Shown: piece by piece, positions 16,683 through 42,525 of the stretch
How positions within the stretch are numbered: position 1 is the first letter of the stretch
How the letters are laid out: each line of letters opens with the position of its first letter
Assembly (NCBI RefSeq): GCF_003268615.1
Contig: NZ_CP029844.1
Coordinates: 186,001 to 250,000 of the forward strand
DNA from: Blattabacterium clevelandi
GTDB taxonomy: Bacteria; Bacteroidota; Bacteroidia; Flavobacteriales; Blattabacteriaceae
DNA: 64,000 nt
Direction of reading: 5' to 3'
Position numbers and translations under genes: made by a program
The notes under the pieces: model-generated
The model's input: the letters and a program-made list of their open reading frames with translations, nothing else
What the model was told of the DNA's origin: nothing
Databases searched by the model: none

Positions 16683-17183
16683 ATGGAAAACTATAGAAAT
16701 ATAATGAAGAATATTAATACTTTTATTTTTGATGTTGATGGGGTATTAACTAATTGTACTTTAAATTTATTCCCTGATGGGAATATGGTCCGTCAAATGT
16801 TTGCTAAAGATGGATTTGCTATACAATTAGCAAAAAATAGAGGATATAATCTATGTATTATTACAAGAGGTTCAGATTTAATGGTTTTTCGTCGTTTAAG
16901 AGATTTTAATATTCAATATATTTATCAAGGTGTTGATAATAAAAAAAAATATTTGGATGAATATTGTAATATTTTAAATATTACTAAAAAAAAAATATTA
17001 TATATGGGGGATGATATTCCTGATATTGAAATTATGAAATCTGTAGCTCTCCCTTGTTCTCCAATAGATGCGGTACCAGAAGTAAAAGAGGTCTCTAAAT
17101 ATATCTCTCCGAAAAAAGGAGGGAGGGGATGTGTAAGAGATGTAATAGAACAAACTTTAAAAATTCAAAAAAATTGGTTATAA
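16683..17183 (+). CDS. kdsC: HAD phosphatase, KdsC-like (KDO-8-phosphate phosphatase family)
   Basis: Subclass C0 HAD hydrolase. The nucleophile motif FDVDG has Asp17 and Asp19, followed by FAKDGFAIQLAKNRG, a Thr/Arg motif ITRG, and GDDIPDIEIM as motif III. Length of 166 aa matches KdsC, which dephosphorylates KDO-8-phosphate for LPS. In a reduced symbiont the substrate may differ; no other KDO gene is in the window, although LptE and BamD hint at a retained outer membrane. Followed by a strong hairpin terminator shared with groL. Confidence 0.8.
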   Translation: MENYRNIMKNINTFIFDVDGVLTNCTLNLFPDGNMVRQMFAKDGFAIQLAKNRGYNLCIITRGSDLMVFRRLRDFNIQYIYQGVDNKKKYLDEYCNILNITKKKILYMGDDIPDIEIMKSVALPCSPIDAVPEVKEVSKYISPKKGGRGCVRDVIEQTLKIQKNWL

Positions 17184-17189
17184 ATATAA

Positions 17190-17220
17190 AAAAAATAGTG
17201 TCTAATGACACTATTTTTTT
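17190..17220. terminator. Bidirectional intrinsic terminator between kdsC and groL
   Basis: The inverted repeat AATAGTGTC - TAAT - GACACTATT is flanked by A-run on the left and T-run on the right, so it works as a rho-independent terminator in both directions. It lies 7-40 nt after the kdsC stop and about 27 nt after the groL stop. Confidence 0.9.
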
Positions 17221-17246: not shown

Positions 17247-18920
<1,674 letters not shown>

Positions 18921-18959: not shown

Positions 18960-19238
18960 TTATATAACTGCTATTACATCAGATTCCCGCATAACAAGAT
19001 ATTCTTCCCCTTCCCATTTTAATTCAGTTCCAGAATATTTTCCGTATAAAATTCTATCACCTTTTTTTAAAATCATAGGTTCATTTTTTTTCCCGTTTCC
19101 AACAGATATCACAGTTCCTTTTTGTGGTTTTTCCTTTGCAGTATCAGGTATAATAATACCTGATGCTGTTTTTGTCTCAGCAGGATCAGGTTGTACTAGT
19201 ACTCGATCTGCTAAAGGTTTAATCTTTACTTCCATCAT
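18960..19238 (-). CDS. groS: 10 kDa co-chaperonin GroES
   Basis: Forms the lid of the GroEL chamber. [11 protein letters not shown] at the start, the mobile loop ([20 protein letters not shown] region) and [12 protein letters not shown] are standard. 92 aa. Two consecutive ATG codons (19238, 19235) are possible starts. A sigma54-like promoter is placed 42 nt upstream (19279-19297). Confidence 0.98.
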
Positions 19239-19278: not shown

Positions 19279-19297
19279 AAGCCAAAAACATGCCAAA
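19279..19297 (-). promoter_or_regulatory. Putative sigma54 (-24/-12) promoter of groSL
   Basis: Minus-strand sequence TTTGGCATGTTTTTGGCTTTG contains the invariant GG-N10-GC of sigma54 promoters (consensus TGGCACG-N4-TTGCW). The mismatches are T for C after GGCA, and TGGC for TTGC. The predicted transcript start is about 30 nt before the groS ATG. The activator gene of the required class is 0.8 kb upstream (20074-21348). Confidence 0.65.
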
Positions 19298-19337: not shown

Positions 19338-19350
19338 TGCCATAATGACA
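19338..19350. promoter_or_regulatory. TGCCATAATGACA motif upstream of groS
   Basis: Lies about 45 nt upstream of the groS sigma54-like promoter. It differs by one or two bases from the element before miaB (22796-22808). A possible activator site; half-sites are TGAC/GTCA. It partly resembles a second -24 box (TGGCAT on the minus strand) without a matching -12. Confidence 0.4.
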
Positions 19351-19355
19351 TATTT

Positions 19356-19598
19356 TTATGAATTATGTTTTAATATATAATTAAAAAATAAAGTCAAAAA
19401 AAATATAAAAATAGATAATATCCAAGTTATTTTTTCCAAAAGATTATTTGTTCTTTTAATTCCAAAAAGTCTAAAATTTTTATCCATAAAAGATTGATAA
19501 AAAAGTCCTTTTTTAGGATTTTGGATCAAAATTATTATGATAAGAAGAAAACATATTAAAATAATAAATAATCCTATAAATAATATAGTTGAATACAT
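19356..19598 (-). CDS. secG: Protein translocase subunit SecG
   Basis: 80-residue membrane protein with a first hydrophobic helix (residues 4-25), the conserved LIQNPKKGLF turn, and a second helix (about 57-75). It associates with SecY (59373-60791). The gene sits 7 nt after the lptE stop in the order lptE-secG-groS conserved in Bacteroidota. Confidence 0.9.
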   Translation of the reverse strand: MYSTILFIGLFIILICFLLIIIILIQNPKKGLFYQSFMDKNFRLFGIKRTNNLLEKITWILSIFIFFLTLFFNYILKHNS

Positions 19599-19604
19599 AA
19601 TTAA

Positions 19605-20084
19605 TTACCAATTATTAAATATTTTATTATATAGTTGAAAAACCAAATTATTAATAATTTTTTCTACTATAAGATAATTTTCTAATGGAAAATTATCTTT
19701 TTCAGAAAAAGATTCTATAATATCAAAATATTTTTCCCAATTTTTTTCTGGATTTAAATTATCTTTACAGTAAATTTTTACTGTCATTTTAATAAATTTT
19801 AATTTTGGATTTCTTCTCTTAATTATTTTATAATCTATAAAATCTCCATATAAATAAATATTTCCTCCCTTTGTTACAAAATTCCAAGGAGTATGTTTTA
19901 AAATAAAATTTTCAAATTTTTTTTTAAATTCAAAAGAAATAGATTTTCCTGAAATATTTATATTATCTGAAAAATTTCCAATTTCTATTGTTTTTTTATC
20001 CAATAAAGAAGGAGCATAATGACAATGACTATTATTAAAAAAAATGGGAACAAGAAATATAATAAGAATATTTTTATAAACCAT
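19605..20084 (-). CDS. lptE: LptE-like outer-membrane lipoprotein
   Basis: 159 aa with an N-terminal hydrophobic segment (residues 3-16) and a Cys at position 21. The body shows the LptE pattern of Bacteroidota: LxFxxxG(D/E)xxDY, a KMTVKIYCKD strand, FSEKDNF, and a C-terminal amphipathic end closing with NKIFNNW. LptE pairs with LptD to place LPS in the outer membrane. The lipobox is poor (NSHC instead of LxGC), so lipidation is doubtful. Overlaps the end of the sigma54 activator by 11 nt; position before secG supports the call. Confidence 0.72.
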   Translation of the reverse strand: MVYKNILIIFLVPIFFNNSHCHYAPSLLDKKTIEIGNFSDNINISGKSISFEFKKKFENFILKHTPWNFVTKGGNIYLYGDFIDYKIIKRRNPKLKFIKMTVKIYCKDNLNPEKNWEKYFDIIESFSEKDNFPLENYLIVEKIINNLVFQLYNKIFNNW

Positions 20085-21348
20085 ATTGTTTAATTTTTCT
20101 ATATAATGTTCTTTCTGAAATACCTAATTCTATTGCAGTTTTCTTTCTTTTTCCATTATTTTTTTTTAAAGCCTTTTGAATAAATTCTATTTCTTTTTTT
20201 TGTAATGAAAAAGAATCTGATTTTTCTTTTGAAAAATCTTCTTCTATTTCTTCATAATCAAGATCATATCTTGATAAAGGTTTTGAAGAATCTTTTAATT
20301 GAAATATTGAATCTTTCACTATAGATTTAATAGAATTATTGGAAGGATTAATTATTTTTCCAAATACTTTTTCCATAAGTTCTTGATTTTTTTTTATAAA
20401 TTTATTATCATTGTTATTTTTTATTAATTGTAATGTTAAATTTTTTAAATGATTTAAACTTTTCTTCATATCAAATAAAATTTTATATAGAAAATCTCTT
20501 TCGTTAGAAAAATTTTGAAAAAAATATTCGTTATTTCTCGAATGAGAAAATGATAAAGATGGAATATTTTCTGGAATATATTCTTTTAATTTTTCTGAAG
20601 AAATTTCACGTTTTTTTTCTATTATTGACATTTGTTCTATAAGATTTTTTAATTGTCTTATATTTCCGGGCCAAGGATATTTTTCTAAATATATTATAGC
20701 ATCTTCAGTCAATTTTACTGAAGGCATATGATATTTATCTGAAAAATCATTAGAAAATTTTTTAAATAATAATTGAATATCATTTTTACGAAAACGTAAA
20801 GGAGGAAGATTAATTTGAACTGTATTAAGACGATAATATAAATCTTCTCTAAATTTTCCTTTTTGAATAGATTCTAAAAGATTTAAATTAGTTGCAGCTA
20901 CAATCCGTATATTAGTTTTTTGTATTTTAGAAGAACCAACTTTTATAAATTCCCCTGTTTCTAAAATTCGAAGTAGACGAACTTGTGTAGTTAAAGGAAG
21001 TTCACCAACTTCATCCAAAAATATAGTTCCTCCATTTGCACCTTCAAAATAGCCTTTTCGCATACTTATAGCACCTGTAAAAGATCCTTTTTCATGTCCA
21101 AATAATTCACTATCAATAGTCCCTTCTGGAATGGCCCCACAATTTACAGCAATATAAGAATGATGTTTCCTATAGGAAAATTGATGAATTATTTTTGGTA
21201 TAAATTCTTTTCCTACTCCACTTTCTCCAAGAACTAGAACGGAAATATCTGTTGGTGCAACTTGAATAGTTTTTTCTAAAGCTCTATGCAAAGCATAATC
21301 ATTTCCAATAATGGAAAATTTTTTTTTTATGTTATGGATAGATTCCAT
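20074..21348 (-). CDS. Sigma54-dependent transcriptional activator (enhancer-binding protein)
   Basis: AAA+ activator that remodels sigma54-RNA polymerase. There is no N-terminal receiver domain; the AAA+ domain begins almost at once. Walker A GESGVGKE is at residues 41-48, the sigma54-contacting loop GSFTGA at 88-93 (Ser for the usual Ala), Walker B GGTIFLDE at 106-113. A Fis-type helix-turn-helix ends the protein (about 385-424, KTAIELGISERTLYRKIKQ). Length is 424 aa. The lack of an input domain suggests it is always on or is controlled by its amount. Lies between miaB and lptE; likely targets are the sigma54-like promoters of groS and dnaK. Confidence 0.93.
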   Translation of the reverse strand: MESIHNIKKKFSIIGNDYALHRALEKTIQVAPTDISVLVLGESGVGKEFIPKIIHQFSYRKHHSYIAVNCGAIPEGTIDSELFGHEKGSFTGAISMRKGYFEGANGGTIFLDEVGELPLTTQVRLLRILETGEFIKVGSSKIQKTNIRIVAATNLNLLESIQKGKFREDLYYRLNTVQINLPPLRFRKNDIQLLFKKFSNDFSDKYHMPSVKLTEDAIIYLEKYPWPGNIRQLKNLIEQMSIIEKKREISSEKLKEYIPENIPSLSFSHSRNNEYFFQNFSNERDFLYKILFDMKKSLNHLKNLTLQLIKNNNDNKFIKKNQELMEKVFGKIINPSNNSIKSIVKDSIFQLKDSSKPLSRYDLDYEEIEEDFSKEKSDSFSLQKKEIEFIQKALKKNNGKRKKTAIELGISERTLYRKIKQYGL

Positions 21349-21361
21349 ATATAGATTTTAC

Positions 21362-22741
21362 TTATTTATTTTTTTCTATTCCTATTCCCATTAATGTAGC
21401 AGATGTGTAATCCATTATTTTTATAAAAACGGTTTCTCCTATTTTATAAGTTTTTTTTGGAAAAACTATTACAATATTTTGTGTATTTTTTCCATACCAA
21501 TATTGATTATTTTTTTTAGATTCTCCTTCTATTAAAACTTCTTGAATTTTACCTATATATTTTTTCATTTGAAAAAGAGAATGATCTTTTTGTAAGTCAA
21601 TAATTTCTTTTAATCTTTTTTTTTTTATAATTTCTGGAACATTATCTTCTAATTTATTATAAGAATAAGTTCCAGGTCTAGGAGAATATGAAAACATATA
21701 ACCATAATTATACTTTACTTCATTCATTAAACTAAGTGTTTCTTGATGATCTTTTTCCTCTTCATTACAAAATCCAGTCATAATATCATGAGAAATAGAA
21801 CATTCAGGAATTATAGATCTAATTTTTTTAATTAAAAAAAGATATTTTTTACGAGTATATTTTCTATTCATTAATTTTAATATTTTATCGCTACCAGATT
21901 GAACTGGTAAATGAATATGTTTACATATATTGGAATGTTTTGATATTACTTCTATTACTTGATTGGACATATCATGTGGATTAGAAGTAGAAAAACGAAT
22001 TCTCATAAAAGGTATTTCTATAGCTAATACATCTAAAAGTTTAGAAAAATCTATTATTTTATTATTTTCAGTATATATTTTTTTATAATTTCTTTTTTTA
22101 AATCCATCGCTACCAAACCATACGTAAGAATCTACATTTTGACCTAAAAGAGTGACTTCTTTAAATCCTTTTTTATATAAAATTTTACATTCTTTAATTA
22201 TAGAATAAGGGTCACGGCTTTTTTCTCTTCCTCTTGTAAAAGGGACTATGCAAAAAGTACACATGTTATCACATCCTCTTGTGATACTCAAAAATGCTGT
22301 TATTTTATTTTTTTTTCTAAATGGGTTTATATTATCATAGGTTTCTTTTTTATATGAAAAAATATGAGAAATTTTTTCTCCTTTCATAGATAAACGAATT
22401 ATACTAGGTATTTTTTTATAAAAATCTGGTCCAATTGTAAAATTGATCAAATTATTATCTAAAAAATTTTTTTTCATTGAATTTGATAAACAACCCAAAA
22501 TACCAAATAATATAGGTTTTTCTTTTTTTAAATACTGTAATCTTTGTAATCTATTTTTTATAGTTAATTCTACTTTAGTCCTTATAGAACAAGAATTTAA
22601 TAAAATTATATTTGCTATTTTTAAATTTTCTGTTAAAAAAAATCCATTATTTAATAATATAGAAATAACTATTTCATTATCAGAAATATTCATTTGACAT
22701 CCATAACTTTCTATATAAAAAAAATTTTTTTTTCCATTCAT
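21362..22741 (-). CDS. miaB: tRNA-2-methylthio-N6-dimethylallyladenosine synthase
   Basis: Radical-SAM methylthiotransferase acting after MiaA on A37. The N-terminal UPF0004 domain has its three cluster Cys (YGCQMN, LNSCSIR, LGCLSN), the radical-SAM motif is CDNMCTFC within a TRGCDN block, and a TRAM domain closes the protein (GKIQEVLIEG onward). 459 aa, normal. The stop is 13 nt before the sigma54 activator start, so they are probably co-transcribed. A TGTCATTATGTCA motif lies upstream. Confidence 0.95.
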   Translation of the reverse strand: MNGKKNFFYIESYGCQMNISDNEIVISILLNNGFFLTENLKIANIILLNSCSIRTKVELTIKNRLQRLQYLKKEKPILFGILGCLSNSMKKNFLDNNLINFTIGPDFYKKIPSIIRLSMKGEKISHIFSYKKETYDNINPFRKKNKITAFLSITRGCDNMCTFCIVPFTRGREKSRDPYSIIKECKILYKKGFKEVTLLGQNVDSYVWFGSDGFKKRNYKKIYTENNKIIDFSKLLDVLAIEIPFMRIRFSTSNPHDMSNQVIEVISKHSNICKHIHLPVQSGSDKILKLMNRKYTRKKYLFLIKKIRSIIPECSISHDIMTGFCNEEEKDHQETLSLMNEVKYNYGYMFSYSPRPGTYSYNKLEDNVPEIIKKKRLKEIIDLQKDHSLFQMKKYIGKIQEVLIEGESKKNNQYWYGKNTQNIVIVFPKKTYKIGETVFIKIMDYTSATLMGIGIEKNK

Positions 22742-22795: not shown

Positions 22796-22808
22796 TGTCA
22801 TTATGTCA
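22796..22808. promoter_or_regulatory. TGTCATTATGTCA motif upstream of miaB / activator operon
   Basis: A 13-nt TGAC-type repeat in the 92-nt gap between pncB and miaB. On the minus strand it reads TGACATAATGACA, nearly identical to the reverse of the motif upstream of groS (19338-19350). It may be a regulator site, but no good -24/-12 promoter was found beside it. Confidence 0.4.
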
Positions 22809-40454: not shown

Positions 40455-40485
40455 AACTAATCCCACTAAGGGGATTAGTTTTTTT
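40455..40485. terminator. Bidirectional intrinsic terminator between psd and dnaK
   Basis: Inverted repeat AACTAATCCC / GGGGATTAGTT with loop ACTAA, then T7 on the + strand and A-rich DNA on the other side. It serves psd and convergent dnaK; the dnaK stop is at its edge. Confidence 0.9.
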
Positions 40486-42391
40486 ATTTGACTTCTTCAT
40501 AATCTACATCTTGGACATTTTCATTTCCTTTATTATTATTTTTTTCTTCATTATTTTTTTTATTAGAATCATTTGAATGATTATTTTTTTTATTAGAAGA
40601 ATAAAGTTCTTGTGAAGCATTAGTCCAAACTTCGTTTAATTTTTTCATACAAATATCAATAGATGAAAAATCTTTTTTACTGTGAGCCTGTCTTAATTTT
40701 TCTAAATAATTTTCTATATTTTTTTTATTATTTTCAGATAATTTATCTCCATAATCTTTTAACTGTTTTTCAGATTGAAAAATCTGATTATCTGCGGCAT
40801 TTAATTTATCTATTTCTCCTTTTATTTTTTCGTCTTTTTTTGCATTTTCTTCCGCTTCTCTTTTCATTTTTTCAATTTCCTCTTGATTTAATCCTGAAGA
40901 AGTTTCAATTCGTATAGATTGTTCTTTTCCAGTCCCTTTATCTTTTGCAGAAACATTAAGTATTCCATTAGCATCAATATCAAAACTAACCTCAATTTGA
41001 GGAATTCCTCTAGGTGAAGGTGGAATATCAATGAGATCAAATCTTCCTATTTCTTTATTATCATTGAACATTGGTCTTTCTCCTTGTCCTACTCTTATAG
41101 TTACTGCAGATTGATTATCTGATGCTGTAGAAAAAATTTCTGATTTTTTAGTAGGAATAGTAGTATTAGATTCTATAAGTTTTGTAAAAACACCCCCCAA
41201 AGTTTCTATTCCTAAAGATAAAGGAGTTACATCAAGTAATAAAACATCTTGTACATCTCCTGTTAAAACTCCTCCTTGTATAGCAGCACCAATAGCTACA
41301 ACTTCATCTGGATTTACTCCTTTAGATGGTGTTTTTTTAAAAAAATCTTCAACTTTTTCTTGTACTTTTGGAATTCGCGTAGAACCTCCTACTAAAATAA
41401 CTTCGTCAATATCTTTAGTAGATAATCCTGCGGATTCTAATGCTTTGGAACATGGATTAATAGATCTAAATATTAAATTTTCACATAATTGTTCAAATTT
41501 AGATCGAGTTAATGTAAGAACCATATGTTTTGGACCTGATTCTGTAGCAGTTATATATGGTAAATTAATTTCCGTTTTAGTAGAAGAAGATAATTCTATT
41601 TTAGCTTTTTCAGAAGCTTCTTTTAAACGTTGTAAAGCCATAGGATCTTTTCTAAGATCTATTCCTTCTTTATATTTAAATTCATTGGATAAATAATCAA
41701 TTAGAACTTGATCAAAATTATCTCCTCCTAAATGTGTATCTCCATTAGTAGAAAGAACTTCGAAAACTCCATCTCCTAATTCCAAAATGGAAACATCGAA
41801 TGTTCCTCCACCTAAATCATATACTACTATTTTTTTATTTTGATTTTTTTTATCTAAACCATAAGCTAATGCTGCAGCTGTAGGCTCATTAATGATTCTT
41901 TCTACTTTCAATCCGGCTATTTCTCCTGCTTCTTTAGTAGCTTGTCTTTGTGCATCATTAAAATATGCTGGGACAGTAATAACTGCTCTATTTACTTTTT
42001 TTCCTAAATAATCTTCAGCAGTTTTTTTCATTTTTTGAAGAATCATAGCAGATATTTCTTGAGGTGCATATAGTCTATTTTCTATATCAACACGTGGTGT
42101 ATTATTTCCACCTTTGACAATTTTATAAGGAATATGTTTTGATTCTTCTGTTACTTCAGAAAACATTCTACCCATAAAACGTTTAATTGAAAAAATAGTT
42201 TTTTGTGGATTTGTAACTGCTTGTCTTTTTGCAGGATCCCCAATTTTTCTTTCTCCATCTTCTATAAAAGCTACTATAGATGGAGTAGTTCTTTTACCTT
42301 CTGAATTAGGTATGACAACAGGATCATTTATTTCCATTACTGCAACACAAGAATTTGTTGTCCCTAAATCTATTCCTATAATTTTACTCAT
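40484..42391 (-). CDS. dnaK: Chaperone protein DnaK (Hsp70)
   Basis: The ATPase domain starts [16 protein letters not shown] and includes [13 protein letters not shown] and [10 protein letters not shown]; the substrate domain ([16 protein letters not shown] onward) and the Asn/Lys-rich C-terminal lid ending VDYEEVK are complete. 635 aa. No dnaJ or grpE is adjacent. A sigma54-like promoter is 39-57 nt upstream. Confidence 0.99.
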
Positions 42392-42429: not shown

Positions 42430-42448
42430 TTCAATCATTATGCCATAA
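42430..42448 (-). promoter_or_regulatory. Putative sigma54 (-24/-12) promoter of dnaK
   Basis: Minus-strand TTATGGCATAATGATTGAA has the sigma54 layout TGGCA(T)-A-N4-TTG(A): GG-N10-GA where the invariant is GG-N10-GC. Spacing matches that at groS. It is flanked by GTCATTC (42414-42420) and GAATGAC (42464-42470), an inverted pair 43 nt apart, and by the TGACAAAAAGTCA palindrome (42513-42525) about 65 nt upstream. Confidence 0.55.
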
Positions 42449-42512: not shown

Positions 42513-42525
42513 TGACAAAAAGTCA
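42513..42525. promoter_or_regulatory. TGACAAAAAGTCA palindrome upstream of dnaK
   Basis: A palindrome of TGAC/GTCA half-sites with 5-nt spacer, about 65-80 nt upstream of the dnaK -24/-12 element, where enhancer sites often lie. It could also serve rplM, which diverges here. Confidence 0.4.

Follow-up and report, generated by a model that had tools for sequence, protein, structure and literature searches.

The groSL operon of Blattabacterium clevelandi raises the question of which sigma factor transcribes chaperonin genes in a minimal symbiont genome. A sequence-only reading of the 64,000-nucleotide stretch analyzed here (the window) had proposed a sigma54-type promoter, based on GG-N10-GC in the minus strand 42 nt before groS, and had set this apart from the CIRCE/HrcA type of control. 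We therefore examined the site, its conservation, and the genes that such a promoter would require.

The -24/-12 element upstream of groSL

Direct reading showed that the position and sequence had been given correctly. The minus strand from 19297 to 19277 is TTTGGCATGTTTTTGGCTTTG, in which GG (19294-19293) and GC (19282-19281) are 10 bases apart, and 42 bases (19280-19239) separate the C of the promoter from the groS ATG at 19238. The site is intergenic, with secG on one side and groS on the other (Table 1), and the groSL transcript is predicted to start around 19269.

Table 1. Features of the chaperonin locus and of dnaK in the window (all coordinates are window positions)
Feature	Position	Strand	Basis
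Putative groSL sigma54 -24/-12 promoter, TGGCATGTTTTTGGCT	19280..19295	-	Direct reading; only exact match in genome; identical in 45/49 congeners
Palindrome TGTCATTATGGCA, proposed upstream activator site (UAS) of groSL	19338..19350	-	Conserved in congeners; one of three exact TGNCATWATGNCA sites in genome
groS (Cpn10)	18960..19238	-	Pfam Cpn10, E = 9.5e-34
groL (Cpn60)	17247..18887	-	Pfam Cpn60_TCP1, E = 2.4e-74
secG	19356..19598	-	Pfam SecG, E = 4.7e-14
ORF in lptE position	19605..20084	-	Named by position after F. psychrophilum THC0290_0732 LptE
sigma54 activator	20074..21348	-	Pfam Sigma54_activat, E = 2.6e-65; HTH_8, E = 1.2e-10
miaB-like gene, first in activator operon	21362..22741	-	ORF
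Second exact palindrome, TGACATAATGACA	22796..22808	-	Upstream of miaB-activator operon
dnaK (635 aa)	40484..42391	-
dnaK sigma54-type promoter, TGGCATAATGATTGAA, GA at -12	42430..42445	-	Conserved among 21 genomes
dnaK UAS-like palindrome, TGACTTTTTGTCA	42513..42525	-	Near match to exact form

The GG-N10-GC pattern, which had been taken as the core rule, is present but weak by itself, with 87 matches on both strands of the window compared with a single match for TGGCAY-N7-GC. Compared with the consensus TGGCAC-N5-TTGCW, TGGCATGTTTTTGGCT retains the GG-N10-GC core and deviates twice. In pattern searches of the genome (620,771 bases), on which all genome-wide statements here are based, TGGCAYNNNNNTKGCW had one exact match, the groS site. 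With one mismatch allowed it had 26 matches, compared with nine for the reversed control pattern; those other than groS were mostly intragenic, and a sensible position was combined with the motif only at groS, dnaK and grpE. Further, the CIRCE sequence (TTAGCACTC-N9-GAGTGCTAA) had no match within the window at up to three mismatches, in agreement with the proposed departure from CIRCE/HrcA control. Just after groL, at 17185-17215, a hairpin (AATAGTGTCATTAGACACTATT) is followed by a T run and is likely a terminator between groL and a convergent HAD-phosphatase-like ORF (16683-17183).

When the groS upstream regions of relatives were aligned, a check that the sequence-only reading had suggested, the element was kept far above background. 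Among 49 Blattabacterium genomes, which are related and so not independent, 45 carried the 16-mer unchanged and the remaining four a close variant. Pairwise identity averaged 0.98 within the 16-mer, 0.48 in the preceding 85 bases and 0.41 in the following 29, and TGGYA-N8-GC was found within 120 bp upstream of groS in 48 of the 49 (0.3 in shuffles). Such a sharp conserved block in drifting, AT-rich intergenic DNA indicates selection. Conservation is thus the real evidence for the putative groS promoter, whereas the bare GG-N10-GC rule proves little. A copy of TGGTATGTTTTTGGCT outside groS in two congeners was rejected as a second promoter, because it lies within a protein-coding gene.

The relatedness of these genomes is remedied, though only partly, by 63 groS loci from other genera of Flavobacteriales, in 60 of which a -24/-12-type element lies no more than 110 bases from groS. 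These elements hardly vary in TGGCA and in the G of -12, but the -12 pair is GA in 33, GC in 21 and GT in six. Strict GC at -12 is therefore not the rule elsewhere in the order, and programs that demand it will miss Flavobacteriales groS promoters with GA. In another class of the phylum (L146-L160), TGGTACGG-N3-TTGCA, a good sigma54 element, is found 70-85 bp before many groS genes; sigma54 control of groES may reach beyond Flavobacteriales.

RpoN, a linked activator gene and a candidate activator site

A search for rpoN had also been suggested, and the genome encodes it. The 496-aa product contains the activator-interacting (AID), core-binding (CBD) and DNA-binding (DBD; PF04552, E = 1.8e-49) domains and the RpoN box ARRTVAKYR, and rpoN was found in all 80 genomes tested. 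The presence of rpoN and the conserved element upstream of groS together support the sigma54-type promoter that had been proposed for groSL.

The genome's only full-length strong match to PF00158 is encoded three genes upstream of groS. Its AAA+ domain begins at residue 13 and has an intact Walker A motif (GESGVGKE), the loop GSFTGA (a variant of GAFTGA) and a lid, and the C terminus is a Fis-type HTH (HTH_8 at 387-422). A domain search of the protein found no receiver, N-terminal sensor or other domain. This architecture, an N-terminal AAA+ domain with Walker motifs and a GAFTGA-type loop followed by a lid and an HTH, with the regulatory domain absent, is that of PspF-type enhancer-binding proteins, which likewise control a stress operon. 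The present protein differs in its linker of about 120 aa, its GSFTGA loop and its target, protein folding, and its nearest solved structures are the AAA+ domains of NtrC, FleQ and NtrC1, with PspF lower in the list. Across other genera, the HTH is its best conserved part (76% identity compared with 30% for the linker). The gene order here is miaB-activator-lptE-secG-groSL, where the first gene is putatively miaB-like, and the ORF in the lptE position had no match in a Pfam search. The order activator-lptE-secG-groS is retained in many other genera of Flavobacteriales.

When the Blattabacterium sequences were lined up at the promoter, a palindrome (TGTCAT-A/T-ATGACA) became apparent, in most cases 55-59 bp upstream of the -24 box; B. 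clevelandi has it 55 bp upstream, between secG and the promoter. The exact form TGNCA-N3-TGNCA is present at groS in 45 of the 49 Blattabacterium genomes, compared with 0.07 expected in shuffles, and in 48 with at most one mismatch. In other genera, 54 of the 60 groS promoters have it with at most one mismatch (2.1 expected), at distances of 25-26, 35-36, 46-47, 55-58 and 75-78 bp. These distances have a period of 10.4 bp, one turn of DNA (R = 0.92; none of 5000 uniform trials was as high), and the phasing holds when one value per genus is used. In part of the order, some palindromes overlap the terminator-like hairpin of the preceding gene and may serve both roles.

Only three exact TGNCATWATGNCA palindromes occur in the B. 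clevelandi genome, all at groSL, grpE-dnaJ or the activator operon. We regard the conserved, helically phased palindrome at groSL as a candidate upstream activator site. Linkage, uniqueness, phasing and HTH conservation suggest that its binder is the linked activator.

Other chaperone operons and the proposed mechanism

Sigma54 control had been presented as a feature of groSL, but it is not peculiar to that operon; candidate sigma54 sites in this genome mark a chaperone regulon of groESL, dnaK and grpE-dnaJ. At dnaK, B. clevelandi shares the conserved TGGCATAAT-G/C-ATTG with the 20 other genomes that were compared. The palindrome TGACTTTTTGTCA lies 80 bp upstream of TGGCATAATGATTGAA, and the dnaK palindrome is exact in 19 of the 21 genomes, with TGACTTTTTGGCA and TGTCTTTTTGTCA in the other two. 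The distances between palindrome and promoter at dnaK are also periodic (R = 0.65, a value reached by 4 of 3000 random sets). At grpE-dnaJ, a palindrome at genome position 541,596 precedes TGGCAAAAAATTTGCT by 26 bp; of 30 Blattabacterium genomes that were compared, about 24 have this pair and five have lost it. This spacing of about 26 bp from the -24 box is closer than that of usual enhancers and qualifies the reading of the grpE palindrome as an activator site. Within the genus, the palindrome combined with strict GG-N10-GC was confined to groS except for one coding-like match in a single genome; grpE and dnaK are missed by this search because of spacing or GA at -12.

The palindrome upstream of miaB has no adjoining -24/-12 element and possibly reflects autorepression of the activator; of 19 congeners compared at this position, about 12 share it. 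It is followed by a TAtCTTTA stretch that resembles a sigmaA -7 box.

In other genera, composite palindrome and sigma54 sites precede grpE, dnaK, groS and lon, as named from reading the protein starts. One composite site with TTGGCA stands before a lon-like ORF (L304, G054), and another has no assigned target (L307, G082). In the smallest congener (G014, 511 kb), the palindrome is lost at groS and both elements are lost at grpE. The loss at groS is not loss of the whole system, because the dnaK pair is kept; the activator and rpoN are intact there as well.

Remodelling of a closed RpoN complex by a bound, ATP-using activator is the established mechanism of sigma54 transcription. On the sequence features established here (promoter, rpoN, activator, palindromes, conservation, phasing and the set of target genes), we consider it very probable that groSL has a functional sigma54 promoter with the activator at the palindrome, and that this activator also drives dnaK and grpE-dnaJ. 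RpoN holoenzyme would sit on the -24/-12 element as a closed complex, and the PspF-like activator would bind the palindrome TGTCATAATGACA through its predicted HTH. Held on a fixed face of the helix, the activator would open the closed complex with its ATPase, would act in the same way at dnaK and grpE-dnaJ, and probably occupies a site at its own operon too. Lacking a sensor domain, the activator may always be active, or it may be kept in check by a partner or through autoregulation at its own operon. We infer the binding, the activity and the conditions of expression from the arrangement of these elements.

One alternative is that the sigma54 promoter is real but the palindrome belongs to another regulator, for example a repressor, while the activator acts from solution or from other sites. 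Binding of the activator to the palindrome is a prediction, the miaB palindrome, which lacks a -24/-12 element, resembles an operator, and the grpE palindrome abuts its promoter. However, the palindrome is helically phased to the -24 box over several turns, it is located at the sigma54 promoters of several chaperone operons, and the HTH is the part of the activator that is best conserved. We therefore regard this alternative as unlikely.

Still less probable is a relic promoter, with groSL expressed mainly constitutively by read-through from the upstream operon or from another promoter, as in other insect symbionts. GroEL is generally abundant in symbionts, just 117 bp lie between the end of secG and groS, both on the same strand, and the activator lacks a sensor domain. 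In contrast, rpoN and the activator stay intact, and the near-invariance of promoter and palindrome in AT-rich, drifting genomes indicates purifying selection.

It is highly improbable that the motif is read by housekeeping sigmaA, which in Bacteroidota uses a TAnnTTTG -7 box and a TTG box some 20 bp further up, and that GG-N10-GC arises as a side effect of conserved T-rich DNA. There are TTTG copies at 19297-19294 and 19280-19277, but the copy that follows GC varies within the genus (sites immediately downstream are 28-62% identical), what is invariant coincides exactly with the 16 bp of the -24/-12 core, and in F. psychrophilum a sigma54-type start has been mapped at groESL (PMC9723704). An additional weak sigmaA promoter may act beside the sigma54 promoter of groSL.

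Relation to known systems and meaning for Flavobacteriales

In Bradyrhizobium, one groESL copy is under NifA/sigma54. That chaperonin operon is sigma54-dependent like the one proposed here, but it belongs to an alphaproteobacterium and is linked to NifA and nitrogen fixation.

The nearest parallel lies within the order. The 5'-end map of Flavobacterium psychrophilum places SM4 (sigma54) promoters at groESL, lon, dnaK, grpE-dnaJ and htpG, which form one co-expression cluster, B254 (PMC9723704); groES-groEL, dnaK and grpE-dnaJ are the targets common to both species. There, too, groES (0729) lies a few genes after an activator gene (THC0290_0733) and the lptE gene (0732) that follows it (PMC9723704). 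In F. psychrophilum, by contrast, sigma54 has further targets in lon, htpG, gliding motility and exported proteins. That species has three candidate sigma54 activators, and the relevant sections of the paper neither assign one to the chaperone cluster nor give an activator site (PMC9723704). A 2025 survey of sigma54 regulons predicts GroES, GroEL, GrpE, DnaJ and DnaK as targets enriched in Flavobacteriia (PMC12316311). It differs from the present analysis in that it relies on PSSM promoter prediction only and, in the portions dealing with the chaperones, names no cognate activator or enhancer for them; Blattabacterium appears there in the reference list only, and Sabree et al. 2009 is cited, apparently misnumbered, for B. 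thetaiotaomicron and F. psychrophilum (PMC12316311).

Because of the published F. psychrophilum mapping, the kind of promoter was already known. The apparently new elements are a site for the activator, a probable activator to go with it, and a sigma54 regulon that a minimal genome has pared down to chaperones; neither the assignment of the palindrome to the linked activator nor the reduced Blattabacterium regulon was found in the part of the literature covered. Our results name a candidate activator and a candidate site for the sigma54 chaperone cluster of F. psychrophilum (PMC9723704).

RpoN retention in flavobacterial insect symbionts, including Blattabacterium, has been called unusual and was tentatively tied to nitrogen (PMC3971599). 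Chaperone expression, which is important where a genome carries many slightly deleterious mutations, would be a simpler reason. Our analysis suggests that the symbiont retains its additional sigma factor, together with one activator, for the control of protein-folding genes. More broadly, it is likely that Flavobacteriales have a dedicated chaperone system, in which an orphan activator encoded beside lptE-secG-groSL recognizes TGNCA-N3-TGNCA on a fixed helical face and has groSL, dnaK and grpE-dnaJ transcribed by sigma54, where other bacteria use sigma32 or HrcA control, and that genome reduction in Blattabacterium has left rpoN and this activator with few tasks besides folding. Removal of a single gene would thereby test how a major bacterial order controls its protein-folding genes.
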